A program made the position numbers and the translations under genes. The notes beneath the pieces were generated by a model that was not told where the DNA came from, did no database searches, and saw only the letters and a list, made by a program, of their open reading frames with translations. A stretch of DNA of 64,000 nucleotides from Owenia fusiformis (lineage: Eukaryota; Annelida; Polychaeta; Sabellida; Oweniidae). Each line of letters opens with the position of its first letter. Position 1 is the first letter of the stretch. The DNA is taken from the NCBI GenBank assembly GCA_903813345.2, contig CAIIXF020000011.1, positions 22,053,754 to 22,117,753 on the forward strand. The letters are read 5' to 3'. Positions 16,244-59,577 of this stretch are shown here, piece after piece.

Positions 16244-17202
16244 GTAAGTGCAATGTTTCTAGTACAAGCAACAGATGTGAATGCAGTGAGACATTCTTTG
16301 AGAGGAACTCTGTGCGTGGTAAGTGCAATGTTTCTAGTACAAGCAACAGATGTAAATGCAGTGAGACATTCTTTGAGAGGAACTCTGTGTGTGGTAAGTG
16401 CAATGTTTCTAGTACAAGCAACAGATGTGAATGCAGTGAGACATTCTTTGAGAGGAACTCTGTGTGTGGTAAGTGCAATGTTTCTAGTACAAGCAACAGA
16501 TGTGAATGCAGTGAGACATTCTTTGAGAGGAACTCTGTGTGTGGTAAGTGCAATGTTTCTAGTACAAGCAACAGATGTGAATGCAGTGAGACATTTTTTG
16601 AGTGGAACTCTATGTGTGGTAAGTGCAATGTTTCTAGTACAAGCAACAGATGTGAATGCAGTGAGACATTCTTTGAGAGGAACTCTATGTGTGGTAAGTG
16701 CAATGTTTCTAGTACAAGCAACAGATGTAAATGCAGTGAGACATTCTTTGAGAGGAACTCTGTGTGTGGTAAGTGCAATGTTTCTAGTACAAGCAACAGA
16801 TGTGAATGCAGTGAGACATTCTTTGAGAGGAACTCTGTGCGTGGTAAGTGCAATGTTTCTAGTACAAGCAACAGATGTGAATGCAGTGAGACATTCTTTG
16901 AGAGGAACTCTATGTGTGGTAAGTGCAATGTTTCTAGTACAAGCAACAGATGTGAATGCAGTGAAACATTCTTTGAGAGGAACTCTATGTGTGGTAAGTG
17001 CAATGTTTCTAGTACAAGCAACAGATGTGAATGCAGTGAGACATTCTTTGAGAGGAACTCTATGTGTGGTAAGTGCAATGTTTCTAGTACAAGCAACAGA
17101 TGTGAATGCAGTGAGACATTCTTTGAGAGGAACTCTATGTGTGGTAAGTGCAATGTTTCTAGTACAAGCAACATATGTGAATGCAGTGAGACATTCTTTT
17201 AG
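16244..17202 (+). repeat. 75-bp tandem array of exon end plus 5' splice site (about 13 copies)
   Basis: Thirteen GTAAGTGCAATG donor-like sites occur exactly 75 bp apart from 16244 to 17144. Each unit is 19 nt of former intron start (GTAAGTGCAATGTTTCTAG) plus 56 nt of exon 3 end. Because 75 is 25 codons and the intron part has no stop, the array reads through as repeats of a 25-residue unit (GKCNVSSTSNRC, ECSETFFERNSVC). Every donor leaves in phase 1, compatible with the next exon at 17422. The last unit is degenerate and hits a stop (17200-17202). Several other frames are open across the array only because of its period. Confidence 0.9.
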
Positions 17203-39942: not shown

Positions 39943-40336
39943 GTGAGTAAAGCGAAAACAATTTTTTTGCAGAGATTTTTACATGCACTTTATGATATCA
40001 AGACAAAAAAGCTTTGAATTCATGGTTCATGGGTCAGAACAGAATTATTTTGATTTCTTCAGTCAATTTAATCTTAATTAAGAACAATGGTGTCTATTAT
40101 ATATATATATATGTGTATATTACAGTTACTTTATACTATTATAAACAGAAACGAAACAACGTCATTCACATTTTGAATGATATCCTATATTTTATTCAAT
40201 GGAAGCTTTTCAATGGAAGTTTCTAAAACTCATTTTTACAAATACTGTTTATATATTTTTTATAATGTTATGCAGGAGATATAAAAGGAAATACTTTAAG
40301 AGTACAAGTATCCATTTGAGACTGTTCTACTTCCAG

Positions 40337-40669
40337 GAGCTTGGACGCCTAACATCTGTAGCGAATTTCTCTATAAATCCACCACATCTTACATCCGAAG
40401 CCCCGGGTACCCAAACCCATACTCCCACAATGCAAACTGTTCTTGCATAATCACCAGTGACAATGCACAGGAAATCAAACTCTCCTTGACAACATTCAGT
40501 CTCTATGACAACGATGAGAAGTGTCTTGATTGGCTGGAGATGAGCTATGGAGGAGAGGGACATAAATTATGTGGGACAAAGTTTGGACATGCAGTTTCAG
40601 ATAGCTACATGTTGAACTACCACACGGATGAGCAAAATTCAGGACCTGGCTTTATGTTGCTCATAACAG
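40337..40669 (+). CDS. CUB domain 2
   Basis: CTACTTCCAG acceptor, GTGAGA donor, 333 nt, phase 1-1. IRSPGYPNPYSHNANCSCII, CLDWLEM, HKLCGTKF and GPGFMLLIT. It shares the unusual C-x-C with CUB 1, supporting block duplication. The start is inferred from splice consensus and frame; 19 coding residues precede the first SPGYP motif. Confidence 0.85.
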
Positions 40670-40912
40670 GTGAGAGTAAAGGCTATTAGACTAGCATTAA
40701 GGTAGACAGGGTGGAATAAATGGTGAGACTAAATGAATAAGTACAGATGTCATGCATGATTAGTCTGACAGTTGATCCAAATGGCCCGACTTAGTTATCC
40801 AAGAACCCCTTTCATTAAGTTCTCTCATCCTGTGTATTTATATCAGGAGATGTTTATATTTATTTTATTTACTTATTTTTATTTGTTTATTTTTCATTTA
40901 TCTTTATTTCAG

Positions 40913-41526
40913 GAGGAGATGGTTATAATGTGACAGTGACTTGTAATGTAAAACAAAGAGCCCCAACCACCACCACCAGCACAACCAGTACAACAACCAC
41001 CACCACCACCCCAACCAGTACAACAATGACACCTACAACCACCACTACAATACAAACCACACCCACCACCAAAGCAGAACCAACCACCACAAAGCCCAAG
41101 CAAGACATAAATATAGATGAAGGATCACTTACAGTTGATGAGGATGATAACAACAAAGATGAACATGACATTGTATTTACAGATATTAAAAACTTTGCAC
41201 ATAACATCAATCTCAACATTGGCCATGATGAAACCACGGAGAACCCTGATTGGATGAAGCATACAAGTAGCGTGTTCGAACCGCCCAGACGAACAACCAA
41301 TAGGATTCTAGGTACACGAAGTAGGCCAAGAGAAACCACCAAAAACATGAGACATATTGAGGCAGAGCTCAAAGTGTCGCCAACATATGCCAGTAAGAGG
41401 CCGATGAACAGAGACAATACACGCAGAACTTCTACTGCTGATAAGTTAACTAGTTCAGGAATTGACTTGAGAAATTTTGGATTAGTTAAATTGCTAGCTT
41501 TATGCATAATATTCCTCATTTATTAA
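40913..41526 (+). CDS. Mucin-like stalk and GPI-type C-terminus
   Basis: ATTTCAG acceptor; stop TAA at 41524-41526. Begins DGYNVTVTCNVKQRAP (the last CUB strand), then about 45 residues dominated by Thr with Pro (dense O-glycosylation candidate), an acidic DEDDNNKDEHD region, a basic stretch, and ends TSSGIDLRNFG followed by LVKLLALCIIFLIY. A short hydrophobic end with no cytoplasmic tail fits a GPI-anchor signal; a C-terminal membrane helix is the alternative. Confidence 0.8.
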
Positions 41527-45264: not shown

Positions 45265-45413
45265 CTAGTTACGGCCGCATTCGGGACACAAGATTTCCTC
45301 GGAGTCAGTCAGGAAGCCCTTGCCGACCAAAGAGATGTTGCAGCGATAGCAAACAAAGCAGTCGCTATGCCAGTGGCGTTCCTCAAACGAAATAAACTTG
45401 GTACCACCCAATC
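45265..45413 (-). CDS. Lmpt: LIM gene, terminal exon (LIM5)
   Basis: TTTTCAG acceptor at 45416-45414, phase 1 entry, stop TAG at 45267-45265. Encodes GLGGTKFISFEERHWHSDCF, CYRC, LVGKGFLTDSEEILCPECGRN, the canonical FHL C-terminus. Its first zinc-binding pair (CCRC) comes from the 51182 exon. Confidence 0.9.
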
Positions 45414-50082: not shown

Positions 50083-50645
50083 CTAGTGTACACGCTGTGG
50101 ACCCCTTGCTGGGATTACAGTGGGGCCATGGGCCTGAGTGGGCACCTTAGTGGGCTTTGGGGCAGTTGGGGTATAATGTTGCCCCTTGGGTGGTATAACA
50201 GTGGATACTTCAACACGGCTTGAGTGAGTTGATTTCTGAATTTGACTAGAAGATTGATGTTGGGTTTGGATTTTTTGAGGGCCCCTTGCTGGAATTACAG
50301 TGGGGGTGTATATTTCATGTTGAATGGGTACAATCTGGGGGGTATGGACATTAGAAGGCTGTGATAATCGCCTGGCTGGGATAACAGTTGGCGTATGAGT
50401 TGCAGTTGGGACTACTTTTCTCCCCTCAGGGGGTCCAGGATCTTGATCCCTGGGGGAAAGGGCTTTCTGGGCTTTACTGGGCTGGTAGAATATTGACCGG
50501 CTATTACGCCTGACCATATTAACGGCAGGGACTGATTGGCGACGGGCTTGGACATAAACTTCAGACCATGGCACTATAAGATTGTATTTTAGATGGACTG
50601 TCAGAGAGGCCTTGTAAAAGTAGGGGTGCATGTGGTATGTGGTAT
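50083..50645 (-). CDS. Lmpt: LIM gene, alternative Pro-rich last exon
   Basis: A strong acceptor (TACTTTTTTTCCACAG, ending 50646) and phase 1 entry match the donor phase of the LIM4 exon. The frame runs 187 codons to a TAG at 50085-50083. It replaces the LIM5 core with YKASLTVHLKYNLIVPWSEV, basic/Ser-rich sequence and four spaced copies of a TVIPARGPQ-type motif (TVIPARRLSQ, TVIPARGPQK, TVIPPKGQ, TVIPARGPQR). No LIM cysteines. LIM4 to this exon keeps the frame exactly (1095 nt from LIM2). Probably a muscle-type scaffold tail; function unknown. It could have an internal donor that I missed. Confidence 0.7.
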
Positions 50646-51181
50646 CTGTGGAAAAAAAGTATAAATAAAATTCAATTAAACTACAACTAAGTTTTCAAGT
50701 TTGGATCAAGACAACCAAGAAAGTCCGCAAAATTCAAATTATTCAAATCATCTGTCTTTATAACAATATCTAAATATAAATTCATTGAAATAATAATCAA
50801 CCTTGGTTGTATGGATCATTTAATTAAATAATAAAATTAAATAGCGAACAGCCACTATAAGTAATTCAAACCTTAACGAAATATCTACAACATACGTACA
50901 TATATTAAAGCATATCAAAATCTGTCCTTTGGGTATTTACGAATACAGGATTCTATCAGAACTACACAAAAGGAATTTTTATATTTGACGAATTTCTAGA
51001 CGCAAAATTTGCTTTCAATAAACACCTTACTGGTAGTATAACAGCGGTGCATTATCAAGCTCTCCAAAATGCCATAACAAAATTATCAATATAATCCAAC
51101 TCCAAAAATTGCCGATTTTACCGATGCAGTTAGGGGGGATGATGAAGGTAACATGCAGAAGCGCTACCTATGTGTACTCAC

Positions 51182-51368
51182 CAGTAATGGGGGCAGTGCA
51201 ACGGCAACACTTCTTAGCGAACAGCTCTCCAAAGCAGTTAGCGCAGTAGGGTTTCTCATCACGGGAGGTGAACTTCTCGCCCGCTAGCTGACTTTGGCAG
51301 TTGGTGCACGTGAAGCATTCACGATGCCATGGGGCTTCCTTGTAGGTAACGCCACCTTTGTTAATAAC
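51182..51368 (-). CDS. Lmpt: LIM gene, LIM4 exon
   Basis: TGTTTTAAG acceptor, GTGAGT donor, phase 0 to 1, 187 nt. VINKGGVTYKEAPWHRECFT, CTNC, SRDEKPYCANCF, AKKCCRCTAPIT. It is the common downstream partner of all three LIM3 alternatives, and its donor leads either to the Pro-rich exon (50645) or the terminal LIM exon (45413). Confidence 0.9.
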
Positions 51369-51814: not shown

Positions 51815-51984
51815 CTTCCCGCATGCTTTACACTTATCAGCGAAGTGTTCCTCATAACAAGGCATGCAAACAACTTCTTTCTCCATGGGAACGAAGCGTT
51901 TTTGTCCAATAGGCTCATCACACTGCTTGCATCTAAAACACTCTTCATGCCAGTGCTTGCCTTTATGCTCGAACTTTTTCTTGC
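51815..51984 (-). CDS. Lmpt: LIM gene, LIM3 alternative exon c
   Basis: TACATTAAG acceptor (weak), GTATGA donor, 170 nt, phase 1 to 0. KKKFEHKGKHWHEECFRCKQ, CDEPIGQKRFVP, EVVCMPCYEEHFADKCKACGK. The most divergent of the three versions: no MKKY start and CKAC instead of CxKC as the first finger of LIM4. Confidence 0.85.
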
Positions 51985-52461
51985 CTTAATGTACAAAACA
52001 TGCAAGCTTAATTAGTATAGCATACATTTACATGCATTTTAGGTTATTGAACAGGGGTAGGGTCCAAATAAAGGGAAGAGGATGGGTAATGTCCAACTTG
52101 TTTTATTTTAATGAATTGAATGCCTTTACAGCATCATCATCTGCTGATTGTTAAGCGCAGCAGTTAATGACAGTTATTTAATACTCAAAAAAGCTGAAAA
52201 ATAACCTTAAAGAAATAACTCAAAAATCTTTAAAAAAAAATTTTAAAATAACAATTTGACAGCTATAAAGGTTTTCAATTTCCGATATCATTTCATAAAC
52301 AAGTTGTTCATTTTATTAATTACACTGCAACAATATGAACTTATACGAACAACAAATTGTTATCTTAAGAGTATTATTCAGTCAGTACAATGTCAGTTTC
52401 ATCCACATGCACCTAAACAATATAAAATGAAACAAACATGCTTAATAGTTAAGGTTGGACC

Positions 52462-52482
52462 GGGGGGGGGGGGGGGGGGGGG
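52462..52482 (+). repeat. G21 homopolymer
   Basis: Twenty-one consecutive G residues in an intron between LIM3 exons b and c. A G-quadruplex-prone tract, on the non-template strand relative to plus; C-run in the LIM pre-mRNA. Confidence 0.9.
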
Positions 52483-53144
52483 TAAGGTGTGTTCATTAGT
52501 ATAGAAACAAGGTGTTTGTTGGAATTAAATGGATAAAAACAACAATTAAGCAAAAATATTTTGTTCCTCACAGAACTTGGATCTCCATGCTTCGCTGAAA
52601 ACTGAGTTTGATGTTAGAATTAAGCTCAGGACACCAGTCTTGCATCATTGGTTTCCTACATCATTCTCCATATCCCATAGCAGAAGACATGATGCAAGTC
52701 CAAATAATCATGGGTTTTCAAAATAGAAAGCCCATGGTCCATTACAGTGGTGGGGTGTATAATATGGGGACTTATTTAACATATAAACCATGTGGTTTCA
52801 ATAGAAAGCCCATGTATAAACAAGGGGGTAGGTATAGTTGAATTATGGATTCTATTGTAATAGCTGGATATAGTAAACGATGCGGGCTCAAGGATTCACA
52901 TTTAGTTGATTTTGTATAAGTCCTTCTTCCCTAACTGACTCGTTTCTACTGTTCAAATGATGATCTAATATCCCTATAACTCAGTGTCTAATGAGGGGTG
53001 ATACTCCTATGCATCAGTTATGACACAATGCGTTGAATTTTTTCAAGAATCCATAATTTAGCTTAAATATCTTGGGTACAGTCCTACAATGTGATATAAA
53101 TACACATGCAATGATTAATACACATGCAATGAGCGTGCTATTAC

Positions 53145-53314
53145 CTCATTACACTTCATGCAACGTTGGGCAAATTTTTCCTCATAACAAGGCACGCAAA
53201 CAACTTCGTTGTCACGTGGGATGAAACTTTTGTTTCCGATTGGCTGAGTGCATTCCTTACAGCAGAAACACTGTTCGTGCCATTGCTTGCCTTTGTATTC
53301 ATACTTCTTCATTC
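53145..53314 (-). CDS. Lmpt: LIM gene, LIM3 alternative exon b
   Basis: CATTCTAG acceptor, GTAATA donor, 170 nt, phase 1 to 0. MKKYEYKGKQWHEQCFCCKE, CTQPIGNKSFIP, EVVCVPCYEEKFAQRCMKCNE. Sequence between a and c; aligns with them without gaps. Confidence 0.88.
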
Positions 53315-55389
53315 CTAGAATGTTAATAGTGGTGGTGTTACACAGGGAGGCACTTTAGGTGTGTTCTTGTTTGTCGCAACTCCATATAAGGGTTTGATTT
53401 GGGTTTCATTTTAGGAACCATACTGAGCAGGGTATGGAGAAGATTTATCAGGGTATTTACTAGACTGCACTAGTCTTATTTTAAGGGAGATTCAGAAAGT
53501 AGGGTGTACATTTCATATTGGAGGGTTCCATGTTTTATAACTCGAATATGGGAGGGGGGGGGGTCTGTCTGATCTGGGCTTTTACTGAATGGTTTTCTAT
53601 TTGGAAGAATTTGTAACCCATTTTAGGTTAATGATGTTATAAAATGCAGAGATGATATAAAGTTAAAGGGATTAAAAAATTAAAATAAGTAGATGCAAAA
53701 AGCATATATATTATTTATACTGGTTAATAAAAACACAGAATAAAATCCTGTGCTTTCAGTTGATGTTATAGATTAAGTATCAGTCATTCATATTACATAT
53801 CAATTGATAATAGGTTATAATGTTGAGAAAGGTAAGGCTATTCATTGGTTAACATACTCAAGACAAGATAATATTTTAGGGAGTCAGGGTTGGGTAGAGG
53901 GAAAATAGAATAAATTGATTGAGGCCTAATTGGTTACAATCCTGTGATGTATCTTCTACAAGACCATATGGTTAGTACATCAAGCAGCTACATTTGCACT
54001 GATTGCCTTATATGGACATTTGTGTTGATTTCCTTATATGGATGACTATATATTGTATGCTTTGAGGATTATATGAACGTGTAAATCTAGCTGCCTCAAT
54101 ATTAGTACAGTATTAATTGTCAAATCACTTGGTGTTACCCAGAACATAAGGACCTGGATCTGTCTGAATTCCCCAAATCAAAATTTGCCCTGCATATTGC
54201 TCAAGTCAGTTTCCAACTCATAGTATATGATGATGAAGAAGTCGAGGATATATCTGTATGGCTATATCGCTATTCTAGAGTATATTTCATGCAGTGCACT
54301 TGATCTGGTAATAAAGTATCTTTTTTAAGTCTATTTTAGGGTCGTTGTGATAATCGTTAAATCAAGATTTAGTAAATTACGATAATGTTGAGAGCTAAAG
54401 CTAAATTGAGTATTTCTGGCTTGGGCAAGCTTTATTTAAAGTACAATGTATATATCGCCATTTTGTCCAGATATTTAGATTCTGGGTAAAACAAGTGATT
54501 TGTCAATGTTTAGTGTATAGTAGTAGTTCATAACCATGTGAGCAGTCACAAGCACATTGGCATCTCCTGAAATGTCTGAAACAAAGCAGCAGTGTGCAGT
54601 TAGCACCCCTAGTAACAGTAACCATAGAAACGGGTCTATTTCCATGACAAAGCAAAATAAGGAACTCACTGTTTTTATAAGGAGTATCAATTTAAAATTC
54701 CAAGTACATGTATTCAATCAAAGGACATGTAATTGGAAGTCCATATTTTGCATCATAAAAGTATAGAACTATTTCTTCTGGCGGACTGTTATAAGGATGT
54801 GTTAGGGTGCACTTAGGTTAGGTGCACGCATGGGCATGCAGTTGTCTCATTCCGCCAACATCATGTGACATTTACTAGATTCTAACAGCCAATGAAAACA
54901 AAGCAAACTCCACAGCATATCTCTGGGTGCATTACACAGCACAACCATATCATAATATCTACAGGGATGGTATAGTGTGACATATGTGATATTTAGAGAA
55001 ATGTGTACTAAACTATATTCAACTTTGAAGAAAATTTTGATCATGTTGATAACATTGACCATCTTGATATTATGAAGAGGTATTCCAGCCACACACGTTT
55101 TCATTGCTTGTTTGAAAAATCAGCTGTAATCACCCATTGTTCTGTCAACCAATCAAACAATTGATTGTTCATCCAATCAATTTATTGATGAATGAACCGT
55201 TTAATCAACAGAACTTTTAAAATGCCTATACTGCACATGTAATTTAAACGAGGACACATTTTCCTCAATACATGTACTGTACATGAATTTTGCTAAATTC
55301 AGCAAATGTATTAATAACATGGGTGAATTAGCCATCGTCACATGATGTTACAGCACAATGAGGTCTCGGAGACATGTACGCATTAGTAC

Positions 55390-55559
55390 CTCGGTACATT
55401 TGAGGCATCTTGGTGCAAATTTCGCCTCATAACAAGGTATACAGACAACTCCGTCCTCCCTGGGGATGAAGCTCTGGGCCCCAATGGGGTTGTTACACTC
55501 TTTGCAAGTGAAACATTGCTCATGAAATTGCTGGCCTTTATAATCATATTTCTTCATTC
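55390..55559 (-). CDS. Lmpt: LIM gene, LIM3 alternative exon a
   Basis: GTTTTCAG acceptor, GTACTA donor, 170 nt, phase 1 to 0. MKKYDYKGQQFHEQCFTCKE, CNNPIGAQSFIP, GVVCIPCYEAKFAPRCLKCTE. The usual tryptophan before the zinc histidine is phenylalanine here (QQFHEQC). It is the first version after LIM2. Confidence 0.88.
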
Positions 55560-55889: not shown

Positions 55890-56064
55890 CTGCTCTAAAG
55901 ATGTCACCACATCCATCACAGCGAGCGGCAAAGTTCTGGTCGTGGCACTCGGCACAGAAAAGTTTCTCATTCTTTGACGCGAAAGGCTGATCGACCAATG
56001 AGACATCACACTTGGAGCAGTGGAAACACTTCTCATGCCAATGTTTCTCTTTGTAGGAGAGATC
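55890..56064 (-). CDS. Lmpt: LIM gene, LIM2 exon
   Basis: TTTTCTAG acceptor, GTATGT donor, 175 nt, phase 0 to 1. DLSYKEKHWHEKCFHCSKCD, LVDQPFASKNEKLFCAEC, ARCDGCGDIFRA. The split glycine codon at its donor continues as GMKKY or GKKKF in each LIM3 alternative. Confidence 0.9.
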
Positions 56065-58264: not shown

Positions 58265-58465
58265 CTTGGAATCAGTGCCGATGGTAGCTTTGCACTCCTC
58301 ACACGTGTTAGCGAAGGTTGCCTCGTAACATACAATACAATATGGCTTCTCCTCACGCAGGATGTAACGGTGACCTGTTAACGATTTCTCACACTTGATG
58401 CAGGCAAAATGGCCCTGATGGAAGTCTTCATCCATGGCTTTAGTATACTCCCCAGAGAATATCAA
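58265..58465 (-). CDS. Lmpt: LIM gene, LIM1 exon
   Basis: TATTTCCAG acceptor, GTATGT donor, 201 nt, phase 0-0. LIFSGEYTKAMDEDFHQGHF, CIKCEKSLTGHRYILREE, KPYCIVCYEATFANTCEEC, KATIGTDSK. The last CEEC pair starts LIM2. The first finger of LIM1 must come from an upstream exon right of the window or not recognised here. Confidence 0.9.
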
Positions 58466-59201: not shown

Positions 59202-59577
59202 GACATTGTCCCTTTAACATACTCAGTGACGAGTCTATTCCAAATAAAAACACACAGGTAGTACATGATTGCAATCTGTATATATATTTGATTAAATTTT
59301 TTTACCAATTTGACCTAGACAGTCAAGCAGTCTAACAGGAGTGTTTATTTAGATTACAACACATTTAACATTATATTCCAGCCCTAAAACACATTGTCCC
59401 TTTAACATACTGAATGACGCTATATTCCAAATAAAAACATATGGGTACTTGATTGCAATCTGTATATATATTTGATTAAATTTTTTTTATCAATTTGACC
59501 TAGACAATCAAGCAGAGGAACAGGAGTGTTTATTTAGATTACAACACATTTAACATTATATTCCAGCCCTAAAACAC
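59202..59577. repeat. Tandem duplication, two copies of about 187 bp
   Basis: CATTGTCCCTTTAACATACT starts each copy (59202 and 59389). AATCTGTATATATATTTGAT and ACAGGAGTGTTTATTTAG recur in both, with small indels. Confidence 0.85.

Follow-up and report, generated by a model that had tools for sequence, protein, structure and literature searches.

How many proteins may one gene yield when an internal exon lies in it three times over, and what would keep the copies apart in the transcript? This question is raised by a 64,000-nt stretch of the genome of the annelid Owenia fusiformis (hereafter, the window), in which three adjacent exons, referred to as a, b and c, encode versions of one LIM segment. 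We consider it probable, at about three chances in four, that they form a frame-locked, three-member mutually exclusive cluster in a single Limpet/FHL gene, with a switch between b and c that Rbfox is predicted to operate.

By the definition of Kollmar and co-workers, a mutually exclusive exon cluster is a set of homologous internal exons that adjoin one another in one gene and agree in length and in border phases (PMC3228551, PMC5740500). The sections of these reports that concern human genes give exon lengths not divisible by three for 377 of 629 clusters (60%), and 283 of 1,399 exons sit in clusters of three to ten (PMC3228551, PMC5740500). FHL1 is named among the human genes with such a cluster, in a passage that does not specify the exons (PMC5740500). 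The Owenia exons are like these clusters in homology, length and phases, and are known here from sequence rather than from junction reads. Frame-locked mutually exclusive exons are well known as a kind, to which the triple LIM exon cluster, well supported at the level of sequence, would add. To our knowledge, there is no triple LIM exon at such a place in the Limpet/FHL/lim-9 family, and among the open-licence papers listed for exclusive exons in LIM/FHL, Limpet or FHL1 genes, and for isoforms or splicing in Owenia, none dealt with this triple exon.

Gene identity and exon anatomy

Most of one LIM-protein gene lies on the minus strand of the window (Table 1). The initial annotation had given exons a, b and c one length, with entry in phase 1 and exit in phase 0, between an upstream exon (E2) that leaves in phase 1 and a downstream exon (E4) that enters in phase 0, and it had pointed to the motifs QQFHEQC, KQWHEQC and KHWHEEC around the zinc sites; lengths, coordinates, phases and motifs all hold on the minus strand. 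The three adjacent internal exons are homologous and share their border phases. An AG precedes and a GT follows each of them, and the splice sites are intact in all three. Each variant exon encodes the second part of one LIM domain together with the first CxxC of the next, and with a, b or c alike the zinc ligands of both domains are complete. The earlier naming needs correction in two respects: the segment called LIM3 is LIM2 in FHL numbering and LIM4 when counted from the PET end, and the exon carries just the first CxxC of the following LIM domain, not the whole first finger.

Table 1. Positions in the window of the exons of the LIM gene and of nearby sequence motifs, in the order of transcription
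Feature	Position	Strand	Remarks
E1, LIM exon ("half LIM" of FHL; LIM2 from the PET end)	58265..58465	-	201 nt, phase 0 to 0; contained in P0126
E2, LIM exon (FHL LIM1)	55890..56064	-	175 nt, phase 0 to 1
Variant exon a	55390..55559	-	170 nt, phase 1 to 0; weak donor GAG/gtacta; E2-a junction also in P0126
AATAAA	55181..55186	-	203 nt beyond exon a; possible signal for the read-through product
Variant exon b	53145..53314	-	170 nt, phase 1 to 0; ancestral-looking sequence
UGCAUG	53123..53128	-	17 nt into the intron after b
UGCAUG	53105..53110	-	35 nt into the intron after b; shares an 18-nt tandem unit with the site at 53123..53128
UGCAUG	52031..52036	-	starts 52 nt before c
UGCAUG	51999..52004	-	starts 20 nt before c, with a TACTAAT branch-point-like site on one side and the acceptor on the other
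Variant exon c	51815..51984	-	170 nt, phase 1 to 0; apparently the most derived
E4, LIM exon (FHL LIM3)	51182..51368	-	187 nt, phase 0 to 1
UGCAUG	51152..51157	-	25 nt into the intron after E4
T, candidate alternative last exon	50083..50645	-	acceptor, matching phase 1, open frame to a stop
E5, last LIM exon (FHL LIM4) with stop	45265..45413	-	ends the 293-codon frame that runs from E1

The donors of a, b and c scored 3.9, 6.0 and 7.5, and those of E1, E2 and E4 scored 9.0, 10.1 and 11.3, by an approximate matrix, so that a is the lowest of the six. Donors weaker than those of their neighbours are common for alternative exons.

The identity of the gene comes from an annotated protein, P0126 ("unnamed protein product, partial [Owenia fusiformis]"), which was found by a search with the a isoform and whose locus is on contig C11. 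P0126 holds the 182 residues of E1-E2-a exactly, and upstream of E1 it carries a PET domain (listed as PF06297) and, by eye, one LIM domain. For this reason the gene is taken as a PET-LIM protein of the Limpet/FHL kind. Within the gene, five stretches match the profile PF00412, and LIM_FHL2-3_N matches at 84.6 bits against a cut-off of 35. No PET exon turned up in the window or in the 30 kb next to it. The order of LIM domains and, through P0126, the PET domain are shared with the PET-LIM proteins Limpet, FHL and lim-9.

The whole genome (498 Mb, 525 contigs) was searched with exon b, and all 21 of the 21 candidates were scored. Nine matches resulted: three strong ones, all at the a/b/c locus, and six to different LIM domains (32-37% identity), including E2 and E4 of the same gene. 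No further copy of the variant exon or of the neighbouring LIM exons occurs within the window. Judged by sequence, the gene is a single-locus PET-LIM relative of Limpet and FHL, in agreement with the initial proposal of a single FHL-like gene. With one locus in the genome, the idea that a, b and c are separate genes is ruled out.

Two other features of the gene region were recorded. The tail encoded by the candidate last exon T has 187 residues with four TVIP(A/P)(R/K) repeats and would replace the last LIM domain; its acceptor is good, it matched no Pfam family at E 0.1, and it gave one match in the own-genome search. Upstream of E1, at 59203-59577, a 185-bp unit stands in two tandem copies with 91% matches.

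Reading frame and the age of the exon

The reading frame admits one variant exon at a time. When the eight possible subsets of a, b and c are joined between E2 and E4, the three that contain exactly one exon reach the natural stop, 293 codons from E1, and the five with none, two or all three stop early. The initial claims on this point, that any single exon fits, that the a-b joint gives GAA TGA at once and that b-c shifts the frame, are all borne out: the a-b joint reads GAG/GAA TGA, and both a-c and b-c are out of frame and meet a stop 82 nt into E4, which is 105 nt short of the last junction. Over the failing subsets, the early stops lie 105 to 524 nt ahead of the last junction, a distance at which nonsense-mediated decay is usually expected.

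It was further claimed that phase enforces the exclusion. This stands as far as the frame kills the wrong products in five of the eight subsets; phase, however, does not choose among the exons and was probably inherited. The frame does not select an exon, it merely renders the other products non-functional. As the phase is probably inherited, the frame argument taken alone is not a demonstration of regulated exclusion. Considered together, the frame, the homology, purifying selection and the presence of three copies at one locus make the mutual exclusivity of a, b and c well supported at the level of sequence.

Homology and selection were assessed from the pairwise comparisons. Identical residues number 41 of 57 for a-b, 34 of 57 for b-c and 29 of 57 for a-c, with tblastn E-values of 2e-30, 1e-26 and 4e-22, respectively, and the nucleotide differences fall mostly at codon position 3. 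In the three exon pairs pS is 0.80-0.89 and pN is 0.16-0.28. The saturation of synonymous sites together with the low pN indicates that a, b and c are old and that all three are under purifying selection. An assembly or allelic duplication as the source of the three exons is ruled out by the same saturation.

Exon b looks like the ancestral type, and a and c look derived, because 216 of 223 aligned segments are nearest to b and because b sits in the tree at branch length 0. The segments were drawn from 226 database proteins plus one own translation, with P0006 counted twice. Four segments are ties, and three are nearest to a, of which one is P0126 itself and two are nearest by a single residue. 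At positions conserved at 85% or more elsewhere, c departs at four, a at one and b at none. In the tree, built on 57 columns from 104 distinct segments plus a, b and c (115 of 120 listed proteins kept, 5 dropped), a and c have long branches of 0.52 and 1.2 and the forks are poorly resolved; 57 columns cannot place a and c reliably. No candidate for a c-like exon in other animals emerged, but this negative is weak, since some of the database proteins collected share four or five words with c. The protein collection was clustered at 90%, and isoforms differing in the variant exon alone would be merged or unseen in it; the homologues were the best 120 of 428 matches and the best 120 of 540 matches.

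The borders of the variant exon may be followed beyond the annelid. One report describes human FHL1 (KyoT2) and fly Limpet as having their introns at the same positions (PMC6337844). A sturgeon protein model, P0006, repeats a 58-residue unit whose ends are those of the variant exon. In two insect proteins, P0060 and P0075, the E2/LIM2 border, which in Owenia lies just ahead of the variant exon, carries insertions of 132 and 76 residues; these extra segments perhaps represent an alternative exon of insects at this junction. The borders thus look old, and for this reason the phase lock was probably inherited from an ancient asymmetric exon.

UGCAUG sites and a predicted Rbfox switch

The hexamer UGCAUG is the motif of Rbfox, which activates inclusion of an exon when bound downstream of it; muscle and neurons are the cells expected to be rich in Rbfox. 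The 60-nt flanks of the exons contain five UGCAUG (the two after b form one 18-nt tandem repeat and hence are not independent) against 0.30 expected (P 1.7e-5), the expectation being drawn from 230 kb of the Owenia genome in 23 stretches, both strands. All five lie beside b, c or E4, and a, E1, E2, T and E5 have none at this distance. TGCATG ranks third of the 602 hexamers present in the flanks, behind GCATGT, which represents the same five sites, and TGTGTA, which does not. Two or more UGCAUG are found in 0.04% of 60-nt stretches. Sliding the exon pattern along the window recovered the double arrangement at 3 of 6286 places on the strand of the gene, all three being the true place within 11 nt, and at 0 of 6286 on the other strand.

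UGCAUG is also present inside exon b (53162, minus strand) and inside exon c (51868, minus strand). Hexamer clumping over 2 kb is not counted as evidence here, as it is not rare in the window: of the 1268 hexamers that occur 15-45 times, 136 attain 9 copies in a span of 2006 nt.

The genome encodes an Rbfox-type RRM, split over three exons in order (C9:4003500-4009000). A family search for the other Rbfox domain, Fox-1_C, was without match, and control genomes were equally silent. The parts of the literature that treat RBFOX describe its control of mutually exclusive exons through UGCAUG in worms and mammals (PMC3585155, PMC2880598). In egl-15 and FGFR2 an upstream UGCAUG represses the exon, and in unc-32 a site in intron 7b is required for selection of exon 7a (PMC3585155, PMC2880598). 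UGCAUG is found beside the competing exons in egl-15 and unc-32 of C. elegans, in mammalian FGFR2 and in Owenia; the repressed exon of egl-15 and of FGFR2 has it on the upstream side, as c has in Owenia. In contrast to these three genes, which have two competing exons, the Owenia gene has three and belongs to a different gene family, and the action of Rbfox on it is predicted. By the rule that downstream sites activate and upstream sites repress, Rbfox would favour b and block c.

A mechanism of the following kind is proposed. Each of a, b and c would be spliced to E4, and transcripts with none, two or three variant exons would be destroyed or would yield dead proteins. Rbfox downstream of b would switch b on, and upstream of c would switch c off. 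As a result, b would be used in Rbfox-rich cells, expected to be muscle and neurons, and c by default elsewhere. Exon a, whose donor is the weakest and whose 60-nt flanks lack UGCAUG, would need another factor or be left to read through. The swap would change a protein-binding surface of the molecule, with both zinc modules kept.

Competing readings and wider meaning

The annotated product suggests another role for exon a. After this exon P0126 runs through the donor for 13 residues, VLMRTCLRDLIVL, and then meets a stop (55348-55389, minus strand); this ending is known from P0126 alone, the representative of a 3-sequence cluster. P0126 likely derives from the Owenia annotation, which used RNA-seq and, in the relevant section of its report, has 99.29% of transcripts supported (PMC9977687), so that the read-through is perhaps genuine, in which case exon a may serve in part or entirely as a last exon. 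In the full form of this explanation, only b, and perhaps c, joins E4, whereas a is a composite last exon with a skipped donor and intronic poly(A), giving a PET-LIM protein that is shorter and breaks off within the following LIM domain. The ending of P0126, the AATAAA behind exon a and a donor weaker than in the other five internal exons scored all speak for it, as does the shortened variant with another C-terminus, KyoT2/FHL1C, that FHL1 is described as making (PMC6337844). We nevertheless hold it to be unlikely: exon a retains a CxxC that is meaningful only if joined to E4, it keeps its GT, its length and its phase despite saturated synonymous sites, and P0126, which is labelled partial, may reflect a retained intron or a model cut short. 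Still less credible is the notion that b is the working exon and that a and/or c are relic copies, rarely used. The closeness of most database segments to b and the departures of c and a at conserved positions would suit relics, but all three exons are free of stops and indels, with splice sites and ligands intact, and in all three pairs pN is far below pS; a relic so old would have decayed.

There is likewise little probability that competing intron RNA pairings, by a docking site and selectors, set the exclusivity in place of Rbfox. Such pairings had been suggested for examination at the outset, and tests on this one sequence gave them no clear support. Between the E2-a and c-E4 introns the top ungapped pairing outscored 59 of 60 shuffles, and a separate scan made without shuffles gave a duplex of -19.6 kcal/mol for the same introns; among the four positions tested for docking, the site in the b-c intron was marginal, with 3 of 60 shuffles doing as well. 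However, the E2-a/c-E4 pair is one of six tested and would loop out all three exons instead of choosing among them. The remainder was unremarkable: for the other five intron pairs, 20 to 50 of 60 shuffles were as good, and for docking placed in the introns E2-a, a-b and c-E4 the numbers were 11, 44 and 8 of 60, respectively.

The preferred reading remains a mutually exclusive cluster of three with an Rbfox switch between b and c. A broader history can be offered tentatively, with somewhat less than even confidence: an old LIM exon of phase 1 to 0 would, by its inherited phases, frame-lock any tandem duplicate from birth, and this annelid lineage would then have built on it a three-way, Rbfox-switched choice of one module in a cytoskeletal LIM protein, by which cell types tune one binding face of the entire Limpet/FHL protein. 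Vertebrates possess several FHL genes. If the cluster is as proposed, the worm would diversify this protein by a one-exon swap within a single gene, much as happens with the muscle myosin heavy chain of insects. The cluster would offer a clean natural test of which LIM surface sets the choice of partner, and a test of whether the placement of UGCAUG predicts exon choice in a spiralian. It would also illustrate how a duplicated exon can become exclusive immediately by virtue of its intron phase.

Two features on the plus strand of the window lie outside the gene. At 40300-41526 there is part of a CUB-domain protein, with a Thr-rich stretch that is weakly mucin-like, below the Pfam cut-off. At 16354-17181, found as a by-catch of tblastn, are tandem repeats of a cysteine-rich unit, CSETFFERNSVCGKCNVSSTSNRC.
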